In this document: one piece after another, positions 14,718 through 62,900 of the stretch | How the letters are laid out: each line of letters begins with the position of its first letter | Numbering within the stretch: the first letter of the stretch is position 1 | Source of the DNA: Owenia fusiformis | Lineage: Eukaryota; Annelida; Polychaeta; Sabellida; Oweniidae | DNA length: 64,000 nucleotides | Assembly: GCA_903813345.2 (NCBI GenBank) | Contig: CAIIXF020000009.1 | Location: 12,910,347-12,974,346 of the forward strand | Reading direction: 5' to 3' | Position numbers and translations under genes: made by a program | The notes under the pieces: generated by a model | Seen by the model: the letters and a program-made list of their open reading frames with translations, nothing else | Databases searched by the model: none | What the model was told of the DNA's origin: nothing

Positions 14718-16004
14718 TCAGTTAACAATAATAGATTCGTATATATGATCCTCAGAAGGCACCTCGCCCTTCTCAAGATCATCTGGAGAATACTTAAATT
14801 CGTCCTTGGTCCATTTCTGATAAAATTTCATCATGTCGATTTTCGGCTTTTTTGTAACATAAACACCTTTTATTGGTTTCCCAATTTTCAGATGCGCTCC
14901 ACTGATTCTTTCTCCTTCGAGAACACCGTGACCTGGTGGCAGCGACTGGTTTTCGAGTCGGGCCTTGTCACGGCCGGGTTCCCATGCCCATATCTGGCTG
15001 GTGCGACATTCCATCTTTTTTGATAAAAATATACGTCTCCTTTGAGGGTTGACCGGTCTCAGTTCGGTGTCCAAATACAAGTCGAAGCGTATATTTCGAA
15101 TTCTGAAACCCGCTGTGCCATCTTCACTCTCGAACGACCATCCAGATCCATCACCGATAACAGGGACTATTTTGCTCGACTCACGAAGCCGAATTGTGCT
15201 TGCATCTTCTGCCACTAAATAATATACGTGATCAAATGGCGTTCGCATTAGAAGTCGATAGGCAGTCTATGAAACAAAAACATAGAGACATACCAAGTAT
15301 GCACAGTCACAACCAGCGAATGGTAGGGGACAGCGGGGTAAAAAGGGTCGTGGGGCAAGACGGGCCACCAAGTTTATTTTATCATTTTGAGATGTACATT
15401 TGCGATTCAGAAATTTATTTCAAAGTCAAGACCATTGTATTTTAGAGAACCAATGTCCCTTGTTTCAGTAAACCATGGTCTTGCTATGTTTGAATTGTGT
15501 TTGAAGTCGTATCGCACTACCAAATATTGATTGCATATTTAGGCTCATTATAATATTGCCCCTTGTTATCCTCTATCATGACATACTTAACCCTGTAAAC
15601 GATCTGTGTTTGATTTCTTAGACTTTTTAAAAAGTAAAACATTGAATTGGTCTCAGTATATATGATGTACATGTTTCAAAATTAATCAATAAATTCCTGA
15701 TATTTAGATGTCTTTATTAGGTGAAGTACCTCGATGATGTTATTTCACATTTAGTATCATAAACAATGCAATTGACGTGTAACACAGATACAATAAATTC
15801 TCCTGACAAAAGTAAGCACTAAAATCTACACAATTTCCTACTTCAGCCGGATTTTCCTTAAAATACAAATTATGGACGATACCTTGAAAACACTGAAATT
15901 CGCCACATACACCGTGACATAGTTCAATACAAGGTACGTATTAGTTATCAAGCCTTAAGCGACCAACTTACCTTCGTATTTCCAGATGCCGCATACTTTT
16001 CCAT
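14718..16004 (-). CDS. Unfamiliar 193-aa cytosolic protein, possible beta-trefoil fold
   Basis: Two coding exons: 15972-16004 (ATG at 16004, MEKYAASGNTK, donor GTAAGT) and 14718-15266, preceded by a pyrimidine-rich acceptor ending CATAG. Both junctions are phase 0, giving 193 residues. An acceptor TTTTAG sits six bases before the ATG (exon starting at 16010), so at least one 5' non-coding exon lies further upstream and was not located. No signal peptide or membrane segment is visible. The middle reads GFRIRNIRFDLYLD ... IFLSKK ... SQIWAWE, a spacing like one lobe of ricin-B or fascin beta-trefoils (F.I.N....YLD, QIW). The tail is charged (KFYQKWTKDEF, SPDDLEKGEV). I cannot assign a named family. 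The single ATG at 15248 inside exon 2 would give 176 residues, but the splice evidence favours the longer form. Confidence 0.7.
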
Positions 16005-21474: not shown

Positions 21475-24400
21475 CTATCTATAGACAGCCTGTGCCTTCA
21501 TCCCTGGGGCTGGGGGCTGAGCTCTTTGCTTGGCATGGATGTCACAGTAAAGCTTTTCGTCAATGACAAAATAACCTGCAAGGCAAACACGCGAATTAGA
21601 TAAAATAATTGTCAAGTTCGATTTTTTATTTTTACATGCTGAAAATTAATAATTTTGCCATAACAAGATATCCATTTCTTGAATCATCTGTATACTATAA
21701 ATAAATGTTCATATATCAGATCACCTTTTTGTTTGAGATTCACACTGCAGGCAGCACACTTGAAACACTCTGGGTGGTAAGGGTTGCCTTTGATCTTTAC
21801 AAGCACACCTCTGTAATACAAACAATACAAAAAATAGTATATATATCAGCTATTACCTAAGATGACAAAAAGCAACCTTCTAACTTTGTCAATAACCTCG
21901 TACCTCATACATGTGGTGACAAAAAGAACCATTTTACATTTTTGTCGCCCTGTATTATATTTTCTTGAACTATTCAGTCGTCTCTGCCCTCTACAGTGTA
22001 CCTCAAGACCCAAACAGTAAAAGGCGTCCATAAAGTCTCTGTATAAGGACTTTATATTGTACCTTTAACTCATTTACGCGGTCAGGCGAGTTTTATCGCC
22101 AATACGCTCTATGGCGTATGTCGACTTGAGGTCGACAAGCTATAGGAACGTTTTAGCAGACTTGAAAAGATGTCACCCTTGTATTGCAGTGCCAATGTTC
22201 GGTACTCACATTGACAGGAAGTGATTTAAAATTAATTTGGCGATGCAAAGTTTCTGAAAAAAATTATTTTGGTCACTTATTGATTTATTTTGTAACAAAT
22301 ACGAATCTGGAAGTGATTAGACATTGTCGTATTTAAAAAAGGGCTAGATTTAGACGGGAAATGATGATCAAATCGCTGCTATATTCAATGAATCGGGTAG
22401 TGAAGCCTAGTATTTGAAGCCTCAGAAAATGAAACTTAGTACGATGATGGACATGACAACTCTGTGCCTGAGGGGCAGGCCAGGGAAGCTGCTGGGGTAC
22501 ACCAAGGTAATATTTAGTAGGGGTCTTATGTTTTTTTTTGCAATACATGTATATGGCATTGAGGATTTTTTATCATCAGTGCCTCTAATTGTGATGAGTT
22601 CATACATTAACAAATGATTTATACATATGTTTCTAATAATGAGTAAAAATTTGGTGGTGTTATCTCTGTTGGTTAAGGCTTTATGGCACTTTCAAATTGG
22701 CAGGCATGAAAATCCTAATTTTTAGTAAATTAATTACCGCTCAGTAGCTTTTAAAAATAATTAAATACCGCGCGAAAGAGTTAAAGGCTTTGTGAGTACC
22801 CTGTATAATAGACAAAGAATCCATGACTACACATTAGCTAGCATCCTCCGATCACAGGGCTTCAAAATCTAGAATACATTCTTTCTTTTTACCCCCTGCG
22901 ATAAGCAGTTACCATTTTCCCGATTAAGAACTCACAATCTGATTGGCTGTCGCAACACTGCTACAGAAATCATGTATAAGTCATTGCGCATAATTAGATC
23001 ACGTGATTCAGTTAAATCAGGCGTTTCCAAATTGGTTATAGCAGGGGGAAGAAGGAGGTACGGATTCTGGACACCTGATTAGGAGGATGAGTACATGTAG
23101 CTTGATGAAAGCATGTATATTATGTTTTACATATGATCATTATACAATATATAAGCAAGTTTTATGACATAAGAGCAAATTGTGAAAGTTTTCAAATATT
23201 GCAGTCTGGCTTTGTTTTGTAACAGAAACAAGCAAAATGACCCTTTTCAAGTTTCATATTGTAACTACAGTACATGAGAGCACCATCTACAGCAGAGTAT
23301 TGTAGTTACCACTCGCCTCTTGGTTCAGGGTAATATGGATGACTACTCACACACAAAGGCCACCACATCCTGCACACTTCATCAGGGACTGCTGAGTTCT
23401 CTCACCGGGAGGTTTTGTTATAGGGGCTGAGACAGATTTGAAGCCACCACCCATGGGGGCTGCAGGTGAGGCCTGAGCTTGGGGCTGGTATGCCGCACCA
23501 GAGGGGGCTTGATAGGCTATAATGTGAATACATACTGGGTTAACAACTCAATCTCCCAGTGATTTCACAAGCGTTAGATCAAAGATATCTTACAAGATAC
23601 TTGACATTTTGAGATAGACGTACACCCACCTTTGAACCAACTTAAAAAAATGTTGGGACTTGAATACATGTAATACAGTATACTGTAAACAATGGATTTA
23701 TATAATATGTGTACCAGTAAATACCTTTTCATGGCAAAGATTTAACACCTCAGATTGACCTTTCATGTAAAATGTAAATAATGGACAAATGTACATGTAT
23801 TTTGATAGATGAACATTCCTTCTTATTGTGACATTAACGATATAGCTTGTACTAAAATACACTGCACTCATAAATATAGATGGCACAGTGAACCAAGGGG
23901 ATGATGCTATTTCTTATTGCTAAAAGTACAGGGTGGGACCAATTTAATTATGGATGAAAAAGCTACAATTTACAACACTGATATAAATGTTCTGTAAATA
24001 ATTCATTGTAGACATGCTTTAGTAAATAAAACACATCCAAAGATTACTTGACTATTTACAGAACAAAGCTACTGTAAGTGTTAAAGCGTGCAGGTAATAT
24101 TCTCCACCGGGTAAATTACATGTACTTATCAAAAGGAAAACTCACACAAGGTTTGATTTTCAAATTCAAATCTAAATATTAATTAATTTTTAAATTCAAA
24201 TTGCTTTAAATTTCTTCAACTTGTCATGCAATCTTATTTTTTCAGTACAGTAGTTTAAATGATAAAATAAATATACACTAAAACAAGCATTCCAATCCAA
24301 CTGCCAAAACACATCTAGTCAGCTTATAAATAATATATGGAGGACCTTGTGCAACAACCAGCATTTGTAGACACCATGTAATATATTATTTGTCATTCTC

Positions 24401-27400: not shown

Positions 27401-30400
27401 AATCTAGACTCCAGTCTACCACCACCAAATTAACAAGACAAAGCATACTAAATATTGATTTAGTCTCATAAAAAAGAACATGCAAATAAAATAAAAATAA
27501 TTCCAATTTTTTGTAATCTTTGTTTTTGTATACATCCTGTCCTCACCCTTTGACTATGCAAACATAACTGACCATGATGGCAAATTCCTTATTTTTTATA
27601 AAATATATACTGTATTGTGAAAATCAATTCCTGGTAATTTTCTTTACGTCATATCAATTTCAGTACATACCTTGCCATGTCAGCCCTTACTAGGGAGGTT
27701 TGTGCAGTGTACGTATCTGCGATGTTATCAGCTGAATAGAGTCCCATTGGAGAGTTAAATTGTGCATGGACGACAGCGGGTCCATTCCCATTGCCCTGGT
27801 CAGCCAACTGAGCAGCTGGCACTGCCTCCTCATAACCACCCTGGGGCGCCTGTGGGGCAGCAACGAAGGGGGGTGGCTGTGACTGCTGCTGGGATGGGGT
27901 AGAATAACTAGCACCCCCAGCACCAAAACCTCTGGCACTGCGGTTATGAGCAGACCCAATATGAGAGAAATCCTAAATTAAACATAACAAACTACTTCAA
28001 ATTACTATATAATCTTACAGGATCAAACATTCACTTAATGTGATCTTTAAAAGGTGTTTGTTTCTTGCAAATGACTCTGTGAACATTAATTTGGTAACTA
28101 TAGGTTAATAATAACGTTACTGAATCAGTAATTAAAATATTACTACCAACCTCTAGTAATGAACCTTTTAGTCACAGCTCAAATTAGCCTGAGGCCCAAA
28201 GCTGAGATATCTGATGTTGGCTTGATAGCCCCAGTCAACCAGACCCCAAACTGACTAGACCCCCACCTGACCAATCTAGAGGTTATTCTACATGTACCTG
28301 TTTTTTGACAGCAAGAGATGTTTTCTGGACCATAGGTATGCCACCAGGCAGAGGCTCTATCTTTTTCAGCTCATCTGGTTTCAGATCTTCTATTTTTGTA
28401 ACTTCTGGTTTCCATACATAAACTGCACCCCTGCAATACAACATGCAAACCCCATATAATTTCAAATATTCATGTATCACCACTTAGAATAGTTTCTTTT
28501 TCAAAATCTCTGGTCTCTATTGATACGGCCTCAAGATTCAAATGTTGAGGATAGACCTTCGTGTAGGTACATGTCTAAAAGGGTTTTAAGCAAATGTATG
28601 TACATGTACATGCAGTTACTGTATGTATGAAGTCAATCTTAAATATACATCTTATTCATTTATTTATCAAATTTAAGATGTACGTATACAGAAGGAAATG
28701 CTAGTTTCCTAAATAAGATCAAATATTACATTCCTGATCTTTTTATGTGTACCTTTCTACCATGAAGACAACTTCATTTCCAGATCTGACTATCTCCATT
28801 TTTGCCTGTTCATGTTCTATGGTATCACAGTTTCTGCCATTTATCTGCAGAACTGCATCCCCTGACATCAAGCCACACCTCTCAGCAACACTATTAGGAG
28901 ACACCTGTAAAAATAAGAATGTGTTCATTAACAAAAGAATTAAGGGACAATGACAATGTGAACTTTTGCTGTTTCTAGTATGAATCATTCCATCGAGCCA
29001 CACCGCTCTGCAACACTATTAGGAGATACCTGGAAAAATAAGAATGTGTTCATTTACAGATTTACATTTAAAGAGTTCACAGTCATATACTCAACTTTAA
29101 AAGGCTCAAACATTAAAGTAGCTTTACTGTTCAAATAGCAAAACTTAATATGTTTTAATAAAGTACAAACATACTTCAGAATAAGAGTGAAGAATGTGAC
29201 TGAGACTCAATCTAAAGGTCAATTGCTAAATGTGATAGCCACATGTAGGTGTATTTTCAGTTGACACAGTAAGATTGTCTTAAAAATGGCAGACTCAGAA
29301 AATATATCGGGACAAAATCTTGAAGATACAGGAGATTTGAGAATTGCTGAGTTTATCAATCATGTGCACAGTGAAGCAAAAATCAAAGGAACTGATGAGG
29401 AAATTGAAGAGCAACGTAAATATATTTCTGACATTGTTCAAAGTATTTTAGACACGGCAAAAGACATTGATCCTTTTATGGCAGTTGACGAAAAGTGTGA
29501 ATGTGGCAGTTTTCATGATGGTACAAAAATTCTCGAAGCCGATGAATTTGATTATATCGGTAAACTCGCATGTTCTAATAAGCTAAAGATAGAGGAAGGT
29601 TGTAAGGAAGGGTACTGCCATGTTCGACCCATTGATCCTTCACTAGCTCATCACATCAAGAACACTATTGTAAAAGGTGTCGAGAAACTTATAAATAAAG
29701 AATACAAGGTTACAGACCCGTCAAAGGTAGAACTTTTGAATGCTGATGTCATGCGGACATACTTTTATTTCTCATTGTTCCGAGAGGCGATGAAGAGACT
29801 GCATAACTCAATAGAGGGACGTCAAATACTTTACAAATACAGCAAAGATTTGATTGACAAGATCGGAGAAGATTACTTGGCTACGAAGGGGAATGAGACT
29901 CGATATATCACTGTATTCAACAGTGAAAATGGTCCAAACATCATGTTTAATGTACATGGACCCCTGTGTGTCTCAAGTGTAGATGTGACATTCGCACTAA
30001 AGATTGATTCTGAATTCATGAATAAGGAAAAGTATGGACGATTAAGAAACAACAACCAATGTCTTTGATGATTGATTTATGTGAAGTTGACATTAATGAA
30101 CAATTCATGAGTCTGACTGACACTATAGTTGCTGTATTAAAAACAGAAGCTGATGGCCCAACAATACAGCATATCAAAAAATGCATGGGACGCTTTACCA
30201 TGGAGCTGACGAACAAAGCAATTTCATTTTATTGCATTCACCAAGGAGCTGCTGTTTTATCGCACATGCATTTCCCAAAGAACAATGTTATGTACTCAAA
30301 ATATGACCCCACAGTCAATGATTTTGATGCGTTGAACTATCATCCACATCCTTCAATATACACACATGATGACATGAAAGTTGTCAATGAGATTGTTAAA

Positions 30401-33400
30401 CAGTTGAAATCACCTGAAGGGCGTCAACTTTTGAATGACGCAGAGGCGTCTGAGTCATTCTTGAGCTATTTGAGATCCAAATGTGAAAGTGGTATCAGCC
30501 CTGAGTGCAGTGCTTACGAGGAAGTGAAAGCCATTCTTAAGAGGTTATAAAGAACAGTCATCAACCTCTAAAAAGTGAGCGATACTACTGTTGAACTAGC
30601 TTAAAGAATTTACAATGTGACAGGTTCAGATAACATTTGTGTCTACTGTCCATGGGATATCAAAATGGAACAATCAAAGATGTTTATATTTCACTTCTGA
30701 GTGTTCACATAAAGGCCTAATTTGGAAGGCATTGCACAACAAAAAACACCTTGTAAAAATGCAAATTGTTACAGATGCCGAACACCATCCACAAAAAAGT
30801 TGCAGACTGTCTAACAATATGTCACCACTTCTGTTGTTGACATAATAAACTGAATGTGACTTTGAAGAAAATATAACATATTTCATCATGTGTGATCAAT
30901 AACACTTCAAGAAACAAATTAGAACTGCCTAGATAGTTTTGTTTGGACTCTTATGGCTTACACTAATCATAATGTTGATTGACTGAGTGGTAGACATGTG
31001 AGTATTTGTTTGCATTTCTGTTGCTTGTTCCACTGACAGACAATCAATGGACCTGCATCAAATGCATAGAGCATGAATGACTGACTACCTGATCCTAAAA
31101 CCACCTCTGAAAAAATGAATCAATCAAAAAACAATGTTTAATGCTTCTATATATGATAGCAAAGCATACATCAAAACACAAGTTTCAATTGTCAGTATAA
31201 TTTATGTCATTTCTGTTTAAAAATATCCACATAATTTATTATGCCATTCATCAGCATACATGGACATCTCCCCAAGACAGATTATATATGTTGGATGATT
31301 AGAGATGCACTGAAAAAGTTATTTTGCCATGTTTATGATGGTGCTAATCTGAGCATAGTAACACTGTCTGTTTATGCCTATAGTGTATTTATTGCATCAA
31401 TATTCGTAACATTAATATCTTCGGTTTTTACCCCACGGAGTAAGTTAAACCGAACATAAACAAAACCAGTTACAACAAATGGTACCTACTATCCCACATA
31501 TAATTGACTGTCTTACACAACAAATATGTAAGATGCTTCAAAAGTGTATTCGACCCGATCAAATATAAATTTGATAAGTATTTTAAATATGTGCGATGCC
31601 AAGTACCATTCGTATTGGGTAAACATATTCATTTGTGCTAAACATATTCATTTGTGGGGTAAGTCACGTGACTTACCGAATGATTTTATATAAACCATTG
31701 TTCACTGTTTTGATGTGGGGTAAGTCACGTGACTTCGACCATGTGACTTGCGCCATCTATATATTCAAAGAGCTCTTGTGTGATTCTCCAATCGCGAAAA
31801 CGTATCTTCTATTAACAAAGGATCGCTTATGTAGCCTCATGCCTGTTGTAATGATCTAATAACTTCTCAATTTCCTTTCTGAATTGTGGATATGAATCGT
31901 ATTTAAATTCTTTTTCCTCGCTTGTTTCATCCATTTTGAAATTTCTACGTCACTGGTCACGTGATTTACCGAATGGTTTTATGCTACATGCAGCATGTGT
32001 CATTTATGTGGGGTAAGTCACGTGACTTACCCCACATAATTTTATGCGAAACATGTCATTAATTATGTGGGGTAAGTCACTATATGTCCGTGCTATTTTG
32101 TACTCTATGATTGTTCGGTAAATGAACATTGTTTGGTTCTAAAGTGTATTTGTATTTGATGCGTGTTCTAAATATATGTGTCAACTGTCTTTGTTCGTGT
32201 GTGTACATGGACTTAAATATGTGATATTTTACCAAACACTGAATAACATAAACCGCATATACAAGTGCATTTACCGCATATATAGGTACATAAATCAAAT
32301 ATAAATGTGTAAAAACAAACAAATTTATTACGTGTTTCGAATAATTTTAATAGAGTGGAATATCGAATGGTTGTAATCAAATACAAAAGTGTGAAAATCG
32401 AATAAAGATGCAGAAAAAATTCCATATATGCCTATGATAACATAACTTCATCCCTAGCTTCAAACCTGATTCATGCTCAATACATTTAGTGAGAGATGTT
32501 AGGAACTAGACATGAACAATAAGCTTATAGTGGAGTAGGGATGGTAGTCTTTCAGGCCTGTAGCCAGGGTGTTCAGGGGTGTGAGTGGAATCCTCCCATT
32601 GGCAAATTCTTTCAAAACAATGCAGTTTTCACCATTCTGAGCACCAAAATGGTCAAATGGGAACCCCCCTCTCTGAATTTCTTTTTTAAAAAGTGGACCC
32701 TCTTGACAAAAGCTGGCTACAGGCCTGGGATTTGTTTTTAATATCTAGAAGGCATTGATGATATGAAAATATATAATTCATGATGATAAAATAATAAAAT
32801 ATTAGATATTTATATACTAGTATACTAGAAAAACAGCAACTCCACGGAGTAGCAAATCCCACCGAACAAAACATATTATGCTTATTATAGCTAGTGGAAA
32901 TGTTGAAATGTTTGTGCACTTTGTGATAGAAGCATGAAATTTGGCACAAAGTTAGTTTATACCATTGTGAACTAGGAATCATCATATAAAATTTGAACCA
33001 AATCTCTTCACTGGTATATGTGTTATCAATGATTACGTTTTTTACGAAAATTGGCCGCCATCTTGAAATTCAGCCGCCATCTTGAAAATTATTTCTTGAA
33101 CAGAGCTACTATGTCCCTAGGCATAATCATATACAATTTCAACCGAATCTGTTCACTGGTATTTGAGTTATCAAATATTATGTTTTTTACGAAAAATTGC
33201 CGCCATTTTGAAATTAAGCGGCCATCTTGAAAAATTTTTGTCGAACATAGCTACTGTGTCCCTAAGCATCATCATATACAATTTGAACCAAATCCGTTCA
33301 CTGGTATTTGAGTTATCAAAGATTACATATTTTTACAAAAAATGGCTGCCATTTTGAAATTAAGCGGCCATCTTGAAAATCTCTTTTTGTGCGAAACTCC

Positions 33401-36400
33401 TTTGTCCCTAGGCATCAGCATATAAAATTTGGACCAAATCCGTCAACTTGTATTTGAGTTATCAACGATTACTTTTTTTATGAAAAATGGCGGCCATTTT
33501 GAATTGAGCAGCCATATTGAAAATTTGTTCTCGAGCAGAGGTCCTACACTCATAAGGCATAAGCCTATAAAATTTGAACCTAATCCGTCAACCTGTATTG
33601 GAGTTATCGCCCGGACACACGGACGGACGGACGGACGGACAAACGGACGGACGGCTTCTCTATATCCCCCTCGAACTTCGTTCCGTGGGATAATAAAATC
33701 CGTCAACCTGTATTGGAGTTATCGCCCGGACACACGGACGGACGGACGGACGGACGGACGGCTTTTCTATATCCCCCTCGAACTTCGTTCGGTGGGATAA
33801 TAAAACTATTATCATTATGTCTGATTTATTATGTCTAAGAATGATGTTGTACCTTCTGTATTATGCATAATTATATTTTGATTTAATGATATGATAACAG
33901 GTAGTGTGATGTCATGTTATATGATATGACATGATACTAATATGATTTCATATCTGTCTAATTTGATATGATATATCTTATAAATGTTAGCGATATGGGT
34001 GATATGATATGATTTGATTGATATCTGATTTGATATGATATTATACAAGATATGATATAATATATCATGACACATGGTATGCAACAATACATCAGCCAAT
34101 ATCCCAAACTGTGCAGAAAAACTGCAAAAATAAACTAGTAAAAATGATAGGTGCTAACAGTAATCTAAGTACATCTAGCAAACAGCTTCAACACAAGCTA
34201 ACATAACACCTAGTTTATGTTCTGAAATGACCTTTAGATGAAGGGCTCCAGAAATACCAACCTACTAGGCCTTATATGAAACTGATGCAGTGAGGTAACT
34301 GCCAGGTAAAATATCACCTACCCTTTGCCAGATTTGGATTCATCTGCTCTCTTAAATAAGACATAATTCATTGATATAGTCTTTATCCACTCAGAATATG
34401 TAATTAAGGTAAGCTAACTTCAATTTAACACTTAACTCTTCAAAGGTCGGCATCTGAGATCTTCACGATCACACAAGCGTCAATATTATGAAATCTTCCG
34501 TAATTGTCAGAGGGTAGTGTAGTTAGCTAATGAAAAATCAGGGTAAAACTTCCAAGCCTGGTATTTACCTTGTGAAGTAAGTACATGTATGAGAATGTTT
34601 TGCCTTATCTGTTATGCCATCAAAAATCCTCACTATGAAATCAATATGCAATTCATTTAACATATTGTGATGGGGATCAGATATCAGATTCAAGTCAGTA
34701 TGTTTAATCATTTGAAGGTCCTTTTATGTTAATTATTTATAGAAGATGAGTTCATACAAAGTCTATTATCAACATGTATATTTAGCCAAAGTGCTTGCCA
34801 AAAATAATGACCTGTGCAATTAAACAGTGTTTAAAACACGGGGGTAAAGCAGACCCGATGATACAATGAGCTTGCTCGGCGGTATCATGGCTGTGTAACG
34901 GGTCTTGATGTATAAGTGAGCTCGGCGGTAGGTTCAAACAACGCGGATCCTCTAAGCATGTGCTCATGGTATCATCGTGGCTTAACACCCGTGTAAAACT
35001 GAGGTATATATGCATCTACCACAGTGGCATAGCCAGGATTTGACAGGAGGGGGTTCGAATATTTTCAGCAAATTTTTTTTGGAGCCACCTTACGGTGAAT
35101 TTAAAGTTAATCTCTGCTTAGAGTCTATTTCATGGCCTGACTGCGTCGGTAGAACTTGAAATATAAGATTTACCTGAAGATTAGGAGTCTTACATACCCC
35201 CTAGAGGTAAGGACACACATTTTAATGAAACCATATCAGCTTTGTTTTGTTCATGATGAAGCATAAGCACATAGTTCTTGATTGAAATTTGTGTTAATGC
35301 CTTTTGGACTTTACCATTTTCATTGTGTTTACTTCCAGAACTTACTAGGAAATCATTCATTTTCACGGTCCATATATATATATACCTCTTGGATATTGTG
35401 CTAACAGGTTATAGGGTTTCATTGAAATGTGTGTCCTTACCTCTAGAGGGTAAGTAAGACTTCTAATCCTCAGGTAAATCTTATTTTTTTCTACCGACGG
35501 TAAACCTCAGGTAAATCTAAGTTCTACCGACGCAGTCAGGTAGACTATATCCTATTTAGTCTGAATTATATTCAGACTATAAGGCACCTATGTTAAAGTT
35601 TGGCAATTCTATATATTTGTTTACATAGGAACAAGGAGGATTGGCTCCCAGAGTGCAACATCGATATTCTGCCCCATATATGGGCATGTCGTGCTACAAA
35701 ATTTGAATTCCAACGACCGCCATTTTGTTCACTTCAACATTTGAATCGTGAATTTTGGTCTTATTTCCCAACGAAAAATTCCAAAACTCACAAGAAATGA
35801 TCGAGATATTGGTTCGAATATTTTGAACTGTTTATTTTGAATTTATAATCGGTTATAATTTCAGAAAATAACGACATTTCGGCGTTTTCATTGTTGGAAA
35901 ATATCGACTTCGATTCTGGGAGCCAATCCTCCTTGCATAGGAAGTGCTATTCAAAATGGCCGATTGGGTAAAATTAATTTGCACATTTGTTACTTCAACT
36001 AGCTTTATTTCCACTTGACAATATGCTATGTTACTTTTTATTGCATTTAATTGTACCTTACTATTTAATTGAAATTTTGTAATGTTTATTTTATTGAAAA
36101 AATGGTTCCTCCAATTGATAATTTTGTGCAAAAAATTTCACTGCAATTTCCACAGGAAAGTAGTACATCATAACAGACTGACTTCTAGTCAGTCTGTTGG
36201 ATACATACTACGCAGTCAGGCCACAAAATAGACTCTAATTTGATTAAATTTTGCCTTTGCTTAAATTTTGCCAAATTTGCTTTCATTTTGGTCCATTTTA
36301 TTAATCTTTGCCAGTTTGCTGGAATTTAAAGCAGAGTGGAGTTTACATGTTGTTTGGTGTACATGATTCATCCATTGCCAATGTCAACAATTCAACACAA

Positions 36401-36746
36401 AATGAAGTAGATCTAAGGAATGTCAATTCAATTGAGTGTACAGTGTAAAGAAAAAACGATATTGACAATTAAAAAACTCCCCTAAACACATATATAATTC
36501 CAAAATGTACAATAATATTATGTGTTTTGTGAGCATCCATTCAAGACTAAAGTAAACTAACCAAAGTTTTGACAGAAAATTTACTTCCGTTTCGCTTCAG
36601 AAAAAAAGTAGGTCAAGTTAAGAACTTACATTCTGGACGGAAAGTGGCGTTGAGAAGTCTTGGCCTCCTTGAAGACGAAATCCCCATGGTACGCTGGTAT
36701 CAGTCCTCTTTAGTGTTATGATTAGCCTATCTGCTGCCTGGCTCAT
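21475..36746 (-). CDS. PDLIM-like: PDZ and LIM domain protein, ALP/CLP36-type, with Zasp-like motif
   Basis: Complete eight-exon gene: 36630-36746, 28753-28904, 28298-28430, 27671-27972, 24917-25146, 23351-23516, 21725-21810 and 21475-21575. All junctions are GT-AG and in phase, giving 428 aa. The PDZ domain spans about residues 5-88; its ligand loop reads PWGFRLQGG, and VSPNSVAE, LMSGDAVLQING follow. A Zasp-like/DUF4749 motif lies at about 200-226 (VVHAQFNSPMGLYSADNIAD). One LIM domain lies at about 359-409, with ligands C359, C362, H379, C382, C385, C388, C406 and H409. Such proteins link alpha-actinin and actin filaments to kinases at Z-discs, stress fibres and adhesions. One LIM makes it PDLIM1-4-like rather than Enigma/ZASP-like (three LIMs), unless other isoforms exist. 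Intron 1 (7.7 kb) contains an antisense gene and a partial copy of exon 2. Confidence 0.96.
22069..22780. mobile_element. Probable piggyBac-type non-autonomous element
   Basis: Flanked by TTAA at 22065-22068 and 22781-22784, with inverted ends CTCATTTACGCGGT and CTCTTTCGCGCGGT (11 of 14 match). It lies in the PDZ-LIM intron between coding exons 6 and 7. A GC-richer patch around 22440-22510 is open on the plus strand but shows no transposase motif that I know. Confidence 0.6.
24477..24570. repeat. Short degenerate tandem repeat
   Basis: About three imperfect units of roughly 32-42 bp share GAGAGAATCANTGCATTT. It lies in a PDZ-LIM intron. The plus-strand frame through it (24390-24575) is a by-product of the repetition. 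Confidence 0.75.
24740..24864. repeat. Small inverted-repeat element, 14-bp ends
   Basis: AAATCTCTGATGCC at the left and GGCATCAGAGATTT at the right are exact inverted copies about 125 bp apart, in the PDZ-LIM intron just downstream of exon 5. This is MITE-like; no clear target duplication was found. Confidence 0.6.
27138..27262. repeat. Hairpin-forming inverted repeat around a poly-C tract
   Basis: The arms GGGAAGGTGTCCAATTATC... (24 bp) and their inverted copy match at 23 of 24 positions. The loop of about 75 bp contains a run of Cs. It lies in the PDZ-LIM intron between exons 4 and 5. Confidence 0.75.
28988..29040 (-). pseudogene. Partial duplicate of PDZ-LIM exon 2 with its splice acceptor
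   Basis: About 90 bp upstream of exon 2 (minus-strand sense) the acceptor and first codons of that exon occur a second time: ...TTTTTCCAG then GTATCTCCTAATAGTG, coding VSPNSVAERCG before the similarity ends. The flanking intron sequence (AAAAATAAGAATGTGTTCATT) is duplicated too. The copy lacks the rest of the exon and any nearby donor in frame. It is most simply a tandem duplication remnant, but its CAG acceptor looks usable. Confidence 0.8.
29286..30550 (+). CDS. cGAS/Mab-21-like nucleotidyltransferase, intronless, frame broken
   Basis: Two overlapping frames, 29286-30068 (260 aa) and 30059-30550 (163 aa). The second is in the +2 frame relative to the first, and its frame is open from 30026. 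ORF1 carries the nucleotidyltransferase signature GSFHDGTKILEADEFDY: G74-S75 and the acidic pair E87/D89, then the third acid D233 in SVDVTFALKID, arranged as in cGAS-like receptors and Mab-21 proteins. Active members make cyclic dinucleotides after sensing nucleic acid or other ligands. ORF2 would be the C-terminal helical lobe, but I do not see the usual W..SFS..E motif or a zinc ribbon. No intron could restore the frame at the junction. It is either a frameshifted pseudogene, two proteins, a recoding site or a sequence error. The gene sits antisense in PDZ-LIM intron 1, with AATAAA at 30844. Confidence 0.7.
30844..30849 (+). terminator. Poly(A) signal AATAAA
   Basis: Canonical hexamer 294 bases after the second stop codon of the nested nucleotidyltransferase gene. 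It is the first such signal noted on that strand, supporting an independent transcript. Confidence 0.5.
31654..32085. repeat. Cluster of GTCACGTGAC palindromes in GTGGGGTAAG arms
   Basis: The 10-mer GTCACGTGAC occurs at 31663, 31724 and 32017, with a one-base variant (GTCACGTGAT) at 31956. A half-copy GTGGGGTAAGTCAC lies near 32068. The flanks GTGGGGTAA and TTACCGAATG recur. At 32004-32039 the arms form a perfect 36-bp palindrome with half TTATGTGGGGTAAGTCAC. The core contains the CACGTG E-box and equals the CLEAR element bound by MiT/TFE factors. The terminal-repeat layout could also be of transposon origin. Confidence 0.8.
32553..32727. mobile_element. 175-bp MITE-like element
   Basis: Exact 15-bp inverted ends CAGGCCTGTAGCCAG and CTGGCTACAGGCCTG. 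There is no coding content. A related word (GGCATAGCCAGGATTT) at about 35026 suggests further diverged relatives. Confidence 0.65.
32920..33595. repeat. Tandem array of about 145-bp units
   Basis: Four to five diverged units contain GCCGCCATTTTGAAATTAAG-type and ATTTGAGTTATCAA words, with period about 145-148 bp (similar points at 33051, 33199, 33346 and 33488). It lies in PDZ-LIM intron 1. Confidence 0.85.
33595..33803. repeat. GGAC microsatellite blocks within a duplicated 117-bp unit
   Basis: Each of two near-identical units contains ACACGGACGGACGG runs followed by CTATATCCCCCTCGAACTTC and GTGGGATAATAAAA. The plus-strand peptides rich in RTDGRT are products of the microsatellite, not genes. 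Confidence 0.9.
33880..34080. repeat. Degenerate TGATA-rich microsatellite
   Basis: Dense ATATGATATGAT and TGATATGATT words without fixed period. No coding content. Confidence 0.8.
35119..36238. mobile_element. Inverted-repeat element with a nested palindrome
   Basis: The left end TTAGAGTCTATTTCATGGCC (about 35119) and the right end AATAGACTCTAA (to about 36238) are inverted copies, as are longer internal arms around TAAGATTTACCTGA and CCCTCTAGAGGTAAGGACAC. Within it, about 35625-35945 has a second inverted pair built on AAGGAGGATTGGCTCCCAG. A perfect short hairpin ACAGACTGAC/GTCAGTCTGT lies near 36172. The layout suggests one element inserted in another. Confidence 0.65.
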
Positions 36747-56931: not shown

Positions 56932-59900
56932 ATGAATTTACGAACTTCACTTGTGTTAGCTGGAAGATTTGCCACTAAAATCTCCGCTCAACAAAAGATC
57001 TGTGCCGCATTTGCATCAAAGAAAACATTCCAGCTACAGCGTGAGGTCTCTCCTTTGGTCACATTTTCAAGATCTTTACTATCTACTGACGTATTCAACT
57101 CAGCTGTAAGTAATCTCCTTTGAGGCCCTGGACTTTCTGTTTGTTCAGTCCGTTTTAGTTTTATTTTCGTCAAAACCCAAGAGATAAGCCTAAGGAAGTA
57201 ATCAAAAGTCTACTCTGCTGTAATATATAGAAAAATATATTCATATTGTACTCAAAGGACAGATAGCATTTTTGTGATCTTCATTGGAGTTGCATGTTAT
57301 TTTTTAGGAACACACAACTCATTCCTTTAGTTTTCATATTTCAGGTTGAAAAATTCAGCTTCCTAATATTTAAAAGTACAAACTACCTCACACAGTAATG
57401 CTTGTAATGCCACATATTATATCAGCACAAGCAATCAAAGATACAAATGTCATTCGTGTATGATGTGACTGTATTTTTCCATATGATACAGCAGATTCTC
57501 TGGTTACTGTGACCATGAATGTCTTCAGTTTAATACAAAAGATAATATCTCCTAGCTTTTTTTCATTTACAACTGCATACATTTCAGCAAACTGACAATA
57601 CTGACACTGAGGATAGCACAATGAATCATAACTTCGGTAACAAAGATGCACCAGAAATGGATGAGGGCCATGTTATACGGATCCGAGGTCTGCCATGGTC
57701 TGCTACCCCAGAAGAAGTGTACAATTTTATGAAAGGTATACCAAAACTGAAATAATCAAACCCCAATCATCTATCCAATGCCTGTTAGCGAACTACAAAA
57801 TATAAAAGTGGCAGAGTTATTCATACTGCTCATCTGTGTCACAGAAACAATGTTGAAACTGTACTTAAAATTCACAAAACTTTCTAATGAAATCTACTCA
57901 CTATAATTCTTTTTTCAGAATGCAATATCCCAGACGGCAAGAATGGGGTCCATTTGACATTAAATCGTGATGGCAGAGCAAGTGGTGAAGCATATATTGA
58001 ACTTGCTAGTGAAGAAGACATGAAGACTGCATTGACCAAAAACAAGGAACACATGGGCAGAAGATACATTGAAGGTACACACTTTGAATATGAATAAGGG
58101 CTGTAAATGCAATCATCTCCCCATGTCACTTTTACCGAAGGGCCCAGTTAGCATCCTGCACTCCAACTCCTGATTTTCAAAATGAGCGAAGTACAAGCGC
58201 TGATTTTTTCAGACTTGCAAAATTGCACGCAGTTGAAAATATTTTGGGGGAGGACACTGATATATCTAACAAAACTCAATTTATCTAAAATAGTCATGAC
58301 ATATCTAGCGTAATGATATAATATTATAAATGATAATAATATAATGTGACAATTCGAAAATATAACTTAAAATGAAAATTTTCCATTTAAGTATTTCGCT
58401 CCAAACGCAGTGAAATGGAGTGGGTCGTCAAAAGAAGTGGCCAAGGTGCTAATGTAGGATCTAGTGATGCAGTTGTAAGACTCCGGGGACTACCATTTGG
58501 TTGTACCAAGGAAGAAATTGCCCACTTTTTCTCAGGTATGTATTATGTGAAGAAGATTCTATTTGGTGCAAGTTTTAAAAGATCATAAGTGAACATTAAA
58601 GGGCTTTACACATTGTCAAGTATTTCATTTTTCAAGTGTTTTATACCATTTTTGTCCCATGATTGCAATGATACAAGTCGTTTAACTGCATTGATATTAA
58701 TGATATCATTTTCGATATTGTCACATTTGTTTATTAACAGAGAGGTTTATCACAACAGGTTATGGCTAAAACGCATCTGCAACGACATCTCATTTGAAAT
58801 GCTACACATAATTTTGGTGAATGCGTCACGATTTTAGATACCTCGATCTATAGACTTTGTGGGAAACCTCTCTATAGCCTGTTCATTGAGTCAGTGAAAT
58901 CACTAACTATAAGTGATATCATACCCATACATCTGATTAATTTATAAAACGAATACTAAAAGGTTTAAAATAATTTTAAATAAAAAAGTCATGGAATAAA
59001 TCGTAATATCAATTGATTTTCCTTGGTTGCATTGATAAAATCAATTGATATCACAACGCATAATATTGTTACAGTTAATCCTGCTACATTCTGGACTGAC
59101 TTTACATTTTAAAATTTTATCTGCCCATTTTTAACCAAATTGAAATAAACCCATGGGAACTTGAATTGTTTATGATTTTCATTATATTACATGACTACAA
59201 TTTTTCCATATTTGTAAGCACGAGAACTGAAATTCTCAGAAGCAGAACATGTTACTTTAAATGTTGTATGTTTATGGTGAAAATGGCGGGCGGGCGGCTA
59301 GCCAGTAAAATTTCAATGTACAACTCAAAGTATAACCATTAATCTCCATATGCAGTCGATCTGTATATGTTACTTTGATTTGTACTGTACACATGTTCTG
59401 ATTTTCTGGGTTGGTAGGGTTGGAGATTGCACCAAATGGGATCACCATAGTACAAGATCGGCCAGGGAAGAGCACGGGGAATGCATATGTTCAGTTTACA
59501 TCGCCACAATTAGCCGAGCAGTCGCTCAGCAAACACAAGGAGCAAATTGGGCACAGGTGGGAGGCTGGGCCCCTTAGGGTCTTAACAATTACAATTTTAC
59601 AAAACTGAAACTCCAGATCTTTCCTCACTATTGGGCGGCCCTATGGTTACCAATTACCATGGTAACTTGTAGTGGGGTTGTCTGGGCCCCGGTGGCAAGA
59701 GGAAGGGCATATGTAACTAGAGGTAGGGCCCTTGTGGCAAGAGGTAGGGCCCTGGTGGCAAGAGGTAGGGCATATGTGACTAGAGGTAGGGCCCTGGTGG
59801 TGAGAGGTAGGGCCCCATATCGAGGAGGAAGGCCAGGAGTGCCTTAGGGTAGGGTCCCAAGCCACCCATATACATAAGGTCATTTGGTGGGTATTGTATT

Positions 59901-62900
59901 CATAATTTATAATAGTAATATATATTCATATTTTTTTATCATAAAAGGTTCACAGTTATTCACAGTTATGCATCCCTCTGGAGTGTCCAATGATGATAAC
60001 ATCTAAAGTTGATGATAATGAAAAACAAAACTTACACTCTAATTTTTTACTGAGGACATCATTCCTAATGCATAACATCAAAATATATTAACCGTTCTTA
60101 TCTTCATCTCTGAAATATTATTAATGATTTTGGAGAAACTGGGCGAAATGCAAAGAAAAAATAATGAATCTGAGGTTAGTATTCAAAACCACTTTGAAGC
60201 CCATGATGGAGATATTTTAATCTTCAGTTAATATACTCATTATATGTGACGTGTGCATCCAAAGTTAATTTTATACCATGGCCTTTTTGCTGAAACTGGT
60301 GAATACTATGGGTATAAATGTTTGGTACTATTTCAAGTAATATGAGTTCTCTCATGTCTTCTCAATATATTGCGAATTCATTCTCATACTTTGCAAACAT
60401 GCCCTAGAGTTTTACCTCGTTTTTTGTTGTTTGCCAGTCTCAGCTCTGAGGGAGGGGTGTAAAAGGGGGGTAAGTGATACAATTTTGAACTGTTTACCAT
60501 TATTAAGTCAGCACTACATTTCTACACAACAAGTATTTGTTACATTTTAATGAAATCATCATAGTAAAGTTCAAATGTGAATCGGAGAATGTACAAGTTT
60601 GTAATCACTAGGATATTTTTCAGTTGAGACTACAGTATGCTAAGAAAGTTTTGCTCATTTGTTGAATTTTATGTTTGGCGAGACATTCCTGATACCTTGT
60701 AGTTTTTTTTTACTTGAGGGTAGTGGTAAACAGTAATGTGTTGATAAGATAAATAATACATAAACTGTTCTACATAAACTGTTACATACTTTTGTACTTG
60801 TATAATTTGTAAGCCAAAGTATAACAACGAGGGAATGGGAGATGGGGGGTAAGTGGTTATTGAGTATATAATTTATGCAAGATTTATTACAGGTATGCTT
60901 AACAAAACGGTTTTGTACTGGGAGGTTTTAAATACAGTGTTTATCCAAAATGAAATATGTGTAACTCCCAATGGACCACAGGGACCGAGGGAGACACTTA
61001 TTTCTAGAGGGATGAACCCATTATTCAAACCAACCATACATAGCCATCGTATCCCATACCTAAGGTCAAACACAAAATAATCCATTCACTCCATGAATAT
61101 TACCATGGGCTTTCAAGAGATTGTTGGAACCCCGTGATATTATACTGTATATATCATTCTATTTTCACCTGAACCTGAATAGGTATGGGATACATTGATT
61201 CATCTAAATTCATGTTTTCTAACTTATACTAAATGCATAACTGGGTTGTTCATATTCTTCATAATTTGTGATAAAGTACATGTACTATCATTACTATAAT
61301 CTCAAGCTTGATAACAATGAATATCATATTTTCCATTGATTAGACATATTCCTTGTGATTCATTCATTTTCATAACCTGGAACTGAAAATAAATCTAAAA
61401 CCTGAAACTAAAAATTATATTGGACTGAACGGATAATACGTTTCAGTTCAAGAATGTTCACTTATTTTTTTAAAAAACCATGGCATTAAGAAAAACTCAT
61501 TTCTTCTTGTCATTTATTTACTTGTGCTATTTTACATCAGTGTCTTACTTTCACTTTGTAGGTACATTGAGATCTTCAAAAGCAGTCTGAATGAAGCCAG
61601 GGCAGCCATGGGCCTTCCAAGACAAGGTGGCTTTGGTGGAATGGGTGGCCGTGGAGGATTCGGTGGTGGAATGGGCATGGGACGGCCCGGACCATATGAT
61701 CGCGGAGATCGATTTGGAGGCGGCGGTGGTGGCATGGGAATGGGTGGAAATATGAGAATGGGTCGTGGCGGTGGACGCAACCTCAAAGGTATGTTAAAAA
61801 GAAAAATTAAATGGTTGTCTCATTCATCAAAATATTAATGATGGAATTACATGAAATATAGGTGGATTATATGAAAGAAGCTAAATCCAAGTTTGATTTG
61901 ATTAAAATTTCTCCTTCAATTTGTGACCAGTTTTGTTTAGAGTCCATTGTCCTCTATATACATGACATGTACATGTTGAGTAAAGCCTCTAACTCTAGCT
62001 TCTTTGAAGGTTATAAGACATTTATTTCTTGAATGTAGGTTTCTATGATGACTATGACGAGTATGGCGATGGTGGTCAGGGAGGATTTGGAGGTGGCATG
62101 AGACGAGGAAGAGGTAGGTGGCATCTTTAAAATAAGGGGTCTATTCTCGTTTATTAATATGTATCGACTCAATTCACTTTTAAAAACTGTCCCTTGATAA
62201 ACTATTGGCTATGATGACAACCTTGCCCTCTATGATAACTGTGATTAGAGAAACTCATAATATACGCTAATCTGAGCCAATAGTTTTTTTTTGTTTAAGT
62301 AAACTGCCAATAGTGAATTTTTATTAAAATTTTGTGCATGGTTTTTGGTGTTCGGCGGTCGGTGTCTGTAACAAATGGCAGGTGGTCACATTTTGCATGT
62401 TCATTAATGCCATCTTCAGTTTTATATGACAAATTATCATTTTAATGTGGATGGGTATATAAGTACAGTTTCTTAATCATTGAACCCTATTCTAACCTGA
62501 AAATTGTGTGCTTAAAAATAACAAGTATTTAGACTGGAGAAATTTTTATTTCGCTGCACACATTAGATGAGAATATGAATCATTTGACTTTGGATATTTC
62601 CTACCATAATCTATTCAATGTGCAACTAGCTTAGAGTATACAAATTGCTTGGTTATAATCATTTGACTATTTGAAATAAATGTAACAAAATTGAATGTGT
62701 TTTTTTTTATTAAAATGAACAAAACAAAATTGAAAAATTTGTTTTTAGGTATGGGTCGTGGAGGACGTGGTGGCTTTGGACGTAATGATGGGGGAGATAT
62801 GCAAGAGTACATCAGCACAACTGGACATTGCATCCACATGAGAGGTCTACCATTTGCAGCCATTGAACAAGACATTATAGATGTAAGATTGCACTCACGT

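Follow-up and report, generated by a model that had tools for sequence, protein, structure and literature searches.

cGAS, Mab21 and their relatives have been described as one superfamily of cGAS-like receptors (cGLRs), with the Pfam family Mab-21 (PF03281; PMC10732462). Two members are known as nested genes, MAB21L1 within an NBEA intron and MAB21L2 within one of LRBA (PMC1784063; for LRBA also PMC11511899), and the MAB21 coding sequence has been described as intron-free in N. vectensis and in vertebrates (PMC1784063). A comparable locus is present in a stretch of 64,000 nucleotides (nt) from Owenia fusiformis (contig CAIIXF020000009.1, positions 12,910,347 to 12,974,346 of the forward strand; the whole stretch is called the window, and coordinates refer to it). 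As in the MAB21L1/NBEA and MAB21L2/LRBA pairs, a putative Mab-21 family gene is situated here within a host intron and its coding part is, as far as seen, without introns, but the host is a PDZ-LIM gene, the match to Mab-21 remains below threshold and the frame is broken. Since the intron-nested arrangement of Mab21 genes is already known, only a conserved and expressed split of the frame would be new, which implies no claim of its absence from the literature, where no search was directed at split Mab21 genes; no support for such a split was found.

The locus is best explained by one gene, free of introns as far as seen, which would encode a divergent Mab-21-like protein of the cGLR superfamily with about 420 residues. 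It would be nested antisense in the PDZ-LIM intron, with its frame interrupted once, within positions 30026–30065. We assign a probability of about 0.8 to one Mab-21-like gene whose single break was produced by either a recent frameshift or an error of sequencing or assembly, the two causes taken jointly.

Two overlapping frames were present on the plus strand, both antisense to the host and inside its 7,725-nt intron. The first open reading frame (ORF1, 29286–30068) runs from the ATG at 29286, the first of its open frame, to the TGA at 30066–30068 and includes 260 codons. The second (ORF2, 30026–30550) ends with the stop at 30548–30550, comprises 174 stop-free codons and has its first ATG at 30059, which would give 163 amino acids. 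The two frames are offset by -1 (equivalently +2). The outer limits 29286 and 30550, the ATG at 30059, the TGA at 30066–30068 and the 10-base overlap between the two, as given in the original prediction, proved exact, and the stretch open in both frames, 30026–30065, is wider, 40 nt. ORF1 would form the N-terminal, nucleotidyltransferase-like half of the protein and ORF2 presumably its C-terminal half.

Both halves have the character of coding sequence. Among the 4058 stop-free runs on the plus strand of the window only two extended over at least 160 codons, and these were ORF1 and ORF2, overlapping each other. In 100 first-order random sequences of 64 kb, each read in six frames, runs of at least 267 codons (as long as the open run of ORF1) were never found, while runs of at least 174 codons (as long as that of ORF2) occurred in nine. 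The length of ORF2 alone is therefore unremarkable, and what distinguishes it is where it lies, on which strand, and its codon composition. With the codon model trained on ORF1, ORF2 scored 4.8 in the expected frame and -29.4 and -13.9 in the remaining two; 4.8 was reached by 0.12% of 3313 background stretches. Reciprocally, the model trained on ORF2 gave ORF1 a score of 18.7 in its own frame against -19.4 and -31.4, and none of 3299 background stretches reached this value. A strong period-3 signal was seen in early ORF1 and a moderate one towards the end of ORF2, with only a weak signal in the part between them, and for this reason the coding case rests on the codon composition test and not on periodicity.

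When read across both frames, the 419 codons included no stops, which under a uniform substitution model sets a ceiling of about 4.6% divergence for neutral decay (P = 0.05). An old pseudogene, against which the original prediction had also argued, is rejected on this lack of stops. Its view that both halves look protein-like was borne out by the reciprocal codon models, each of which picked the expected frame of the other half, and its description of the gene as intronless holds within each half, neither of which needs introns.

The family assignment rests mainly on ORF1. In a search against 24,736 Pfam models its best match was Mab-21 (PF03281; 14.6 bits, E 0.034, positions 2–134 of 197 in the profile), the second-best model being unrelated (E 0.096). 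All four sequences listed up to E 10 in the search of ORF1 against PDB were cGLR or cGAS, with E-values of 0.074–0.93. The GS...KI...DEFD block of ORF1 aligned without gaps to cGAS-like receptor 1 (8gjw), and the GS/EFD region alone found only cGLR1 (E 0.084). The nucleotidyltransferase-like landmarks were located at G74-S75, E87-F-D89 and S-V-D233-V-T-F.

Several results weigh against this assignment. The score of ORF1 did not reach the curated cut-off of the Mab-21 model (14.6 against 24.1 bits), its PDB matches are not significant when taken alone, and the 58-residue region around the third acid gave no match in PDB. For ORF2, Pfam gave no Mab-21 model and PDB no cGLR chain; the best of its five PDB rows was fumarate reductase (E 0.0087), regarded as chance. 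When the two halves were joined by hand, Mab-21 was absent from the Pfam list of the resulting protein and only one of the three PDB sequences listed was a cGLR. NCBIfam had no families for ORF1 and one unrelated row for ORF2 (RTPR, E 0.025), and PADLOC connected ORF1 with PDC-S19 (E 0.016) and ORF2 with Csn2 (E 0.025). The NCBIfam and PADLOC rows are taken as chance, and as unrelated families appear at E 0.016–0.025, no worse than the Mab-21 match itself, E-values of that size mean little alone. Also no relative that could show an uninterrupted frame turned up: searches with ORF1, with ORF2 and with two ORF1 fragments brought up none in viral contigs, and the search with ORF1 none in genome contigs, an absence that says little because these collections have no animal focus and only close relatives come within reach of such scans. 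Single-sequence AlphaFold models were too poor for a fold search (predicted local distance difference test 37.3 with predicted template modelling score 0.23, and 44.2 with 0.27). From the profile check of both peptides, which the original prediction had proposed, there thus remains a sub-threshold Mab-21 match for ORF1 and no convincing family for ORF2.

The comparison with described cGLRs gave a similarly divided picture. The published motif, as presented in PMC9980059, is h[QT]GS [X8-20] [DE]h[DE]h [X50-90] h[DE]h. ORF1 shares with it the GS, the [DE]h[DE] and a third acid in identical order, with 11 residues between GS and EFD where 8–20 are allowed. It differs from the motif, and these points also count against membership, in having E-C-G-S in the place of h[QT]GS and in having 141 residues instead of 50–90 before V-D233-V. 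Third-acid candidates were present within the allowed range, VEL at X 57 and ADV at X 62, neither of them in a context of the SVDVTF type. The statement in the original prediction that all landmarks are visible accordingly holds for the presence of GS, EFD and SVDVTF but not for the strict published motif. Further differences from the cGLRs of that source are that the C-terminal lobe is not recognisable and that the frame is broken. The second criterion for a catalytic cGLR is sequence homology, named in that source for the N-terminal part and completed by us, for the C-terminal part, to the entire protein; ORF2, the presumed C-terminal half, matched neither a Mab-21 model nor a cGLR chain. 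A further criterion there is that a nucleotide messenger be synthesised in dependence on nucleic acid (PMC9980059).

The resemblance would be due to chance if both ORF1 and ORF2 were outside the Mab-21/cGAS family, which we consider unlikely. It would agree with the sub-threshold scores for Mab-21 and cGLR, with the unrelated families matching at similar E-values, and with the frequency of the general GS...[DE]h[DE]h motif, found in 970 of 20,000 shuffles of ORF1. Against it, PF03281 had been named before the search, and E 0.034 over 24,736 models corresponds to roughly p 1e-6 for one named model, with the caveat that the motif that suggested the family also contributes to its score. The tighter form GSx5K...EFD occurred in only one of 20,000 shuffles, this form having been picked after inspection of the sequence. 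On balance, the gene of ORF1 is assigned to the Mab-21-like proteins with fair confidence as judged from the sequence comparisons; it is not counted among the established members of Mab-21 because it stays below Pfam's own threshold, and it is not a demonstrated catalytic cGLR.

A single lesion in an otherwise clean gene points to either a recent lesion or an error in the sequence. A real recent frameshift, which would make the locus a young pseudogene or a null allele, comes near to even odds and is ranked as somewhat likelier than an error. If the break is only in the record and the gene of the animal is intact, sequencing or assembly would be at fault, and this other branch of the preferred explanation is a serious if lesser contender. 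It agrees with both halves being stop-free and of coding composition, so that the break is the sole sign of inactivity, and with the short AAC repeat and the AAAA run in the overlap; that no homopolymer longer than four is present there lowers the chance of an error but does not remove it. Also the first four exons of the host (704 nt) join in one frame with no stop, which speaks against an error, although they are too short for measuring an error rate. Among the options that the original prediction had listed, an error and a recent frameshift therefore remain, mutually indistinguishable here, while programmed frameshifting and two polypeptides are unsupported.

In these last two options, one mRNA would be translated either into two polypeptides or into the product of a programmed -1 frameshift; the catalytic and C-terminal halves could arise through coupled reinitiation where the ATG and the TGA overlap, or through a frameshift of an unconventional kind. 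The compact overlap and the coding-like character of both halves would suit such a split sensor, but the 14 heptamers read in the zero frame between 30023 and 30062 include no canonical X XXY YYZ slippery site. The three RNA folds of the junction were not unusually stable (z-scores +1.50, +0.10 and -0.50, with 193, 104 and 56 of 200 shuffles, respectively, folding at least as well; pseudoknots were outside the model), and the context of the ORF2 ATG is poor, with C at -3 and T at +4. Reinitiation after an ORF of 260 codons is, in addition, inefficient in eukaryotes. Both the split sensor in general and this route to it are regarded as the least probable of the readings considered. An intron joining the frames of ORF1 and ORF2 is likewise very improbable. 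Candidate introns were not scarce, as 438 phase-compatible GT...AG pairs were found, the top pair (29966–30510) summing to 2.0, and the introns of the host themselves summed to 7.0, 2.1 and 0.3, one of them no better than the candidates; these scores were calculated from a splice-site weight table, with the host's own sites ranging from -1.2 to 4.6. The top pair would, however, leave only 37 nt of ORF2 and delete the third-acid codon. At least half of ORF2 was retained by 206 pairs, the best of which (29677–30128) summed to 0.2 and would delete roughly the final 130 codons of ORF1, and only 11 of the 206 also retained the third acid, the best of these summing to -2.2. Furthermore, the codon model showed the sequence that would be spliced out to be coding-like.

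A single Mab-21-like gene with one break is consequently the reading followed here. With the sequence as it stands, translation would end at 260 residues, keeping the nucleotide-binding landmarks and losing the C-terminal lobe, and because this lobe is missing the truncated product is probably inactive. Whether an intact version would take part in nucleic-acid sensing or cyclic-dinucleotide synthesis, as might be supposed from the family alone, is uncertain because of the departures from the strict active-site motif. Mab21-like proteins departing from the catalytic pattern have been described from another invertebrate: the LvMab21 proteins of shrimp are reported to act as activators of IKKepsilon with no cGAMP synthesis detected, and the LvMab21 genes are, in contrast to the gene here, intact (PMC12928593). 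No sign of a recent retrocopy was detected, there being neither a poly-A tract (no run of at least eight A or T in 28801–31800) nor flanking direct repeats of at least 14 nt in 28700–31700, shorter repeats not having been sought.

If the split were true and conserved, it would represent a new mode of construction for a cGAS-type sensor; on the present evidence, the locus holds a divergent Mab-21-like gene whose frame has a single lesion. Some bivalve genomes have been reported to include more than 200 cGLR proteins (PMC9980059), and with counts of this size disabled copies would not be surprising. The locus serves mainly to advise caution with cGLR gene counts in invertebrate genomes, in which a broken copy looks the same as a sequence error.

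The nesting in a PDZ-LIM intron, proposed in the original prediction, is correct on the basis of the splice sites and the joined PDZ frame. The host intron extends over 28905–36629 on the minus strand and splits the PDZ domain. Coding exon 1 (36630–36746, minus strand) includes the first part of the domain, for which Pfam PDZ was weak on the exon alone (12.7 bits, cut-off 23.2), and ends at 36630, followed by a GTAAGT donor. Exon 2 (28753–28904, minus strand) includes the second part, with Pfam PDZ above its cut-off, and its start at 28904 is preceded by TTTTTACAG. Of the other domains of the host, DUF4749 was found on exon 4 and LIM at 21717–21836.

The host intron also holds a tandem copy of 68 nt (28991–29058), 91% identical to 28866–28933 and 125 nt away from it. 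The copy duplicates the 3' splice site and the start of PDZ exon 2 and, as we read it, gives VSPNSVAERCGSME and then meets a stop. Its acceptor has the same score as the real acceptor of exon 2 (3.9), and it could be a decoy splice site. Downstream of the nested gene, an AATAAA at 30844–30849 on the plus strand, 294 nt 3' of the ORF2 stop, is by its pattern a possible polyadenylation signal. An imperfect inverted repeat of 20 nt (29136–29155 and 31621–31640, 85%) brackets the nested gene and may be due to chance.

ARAGORN detected no tRNAs and Rfam gave no matches at its gathering thresholds. Elsewhere in the window, the minus strand is free of stops for 182 codons at 14718–15266; this run looks protein-like and matched nothing in Pfam up to E 10. 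A minisatellite at 32972–33608 has a unit of 145 nt in 4.4 copies with 82% matches. On the plus strand, the region 57687–62855 includes GLP[WF] motifs at 57687, 58487 and 62844 together with glycine-rich stretches, and resembles a gene of the hnRNP H/F type; the RRM profile was found in one of the three pieces scanned, below threshold (E 0.17).

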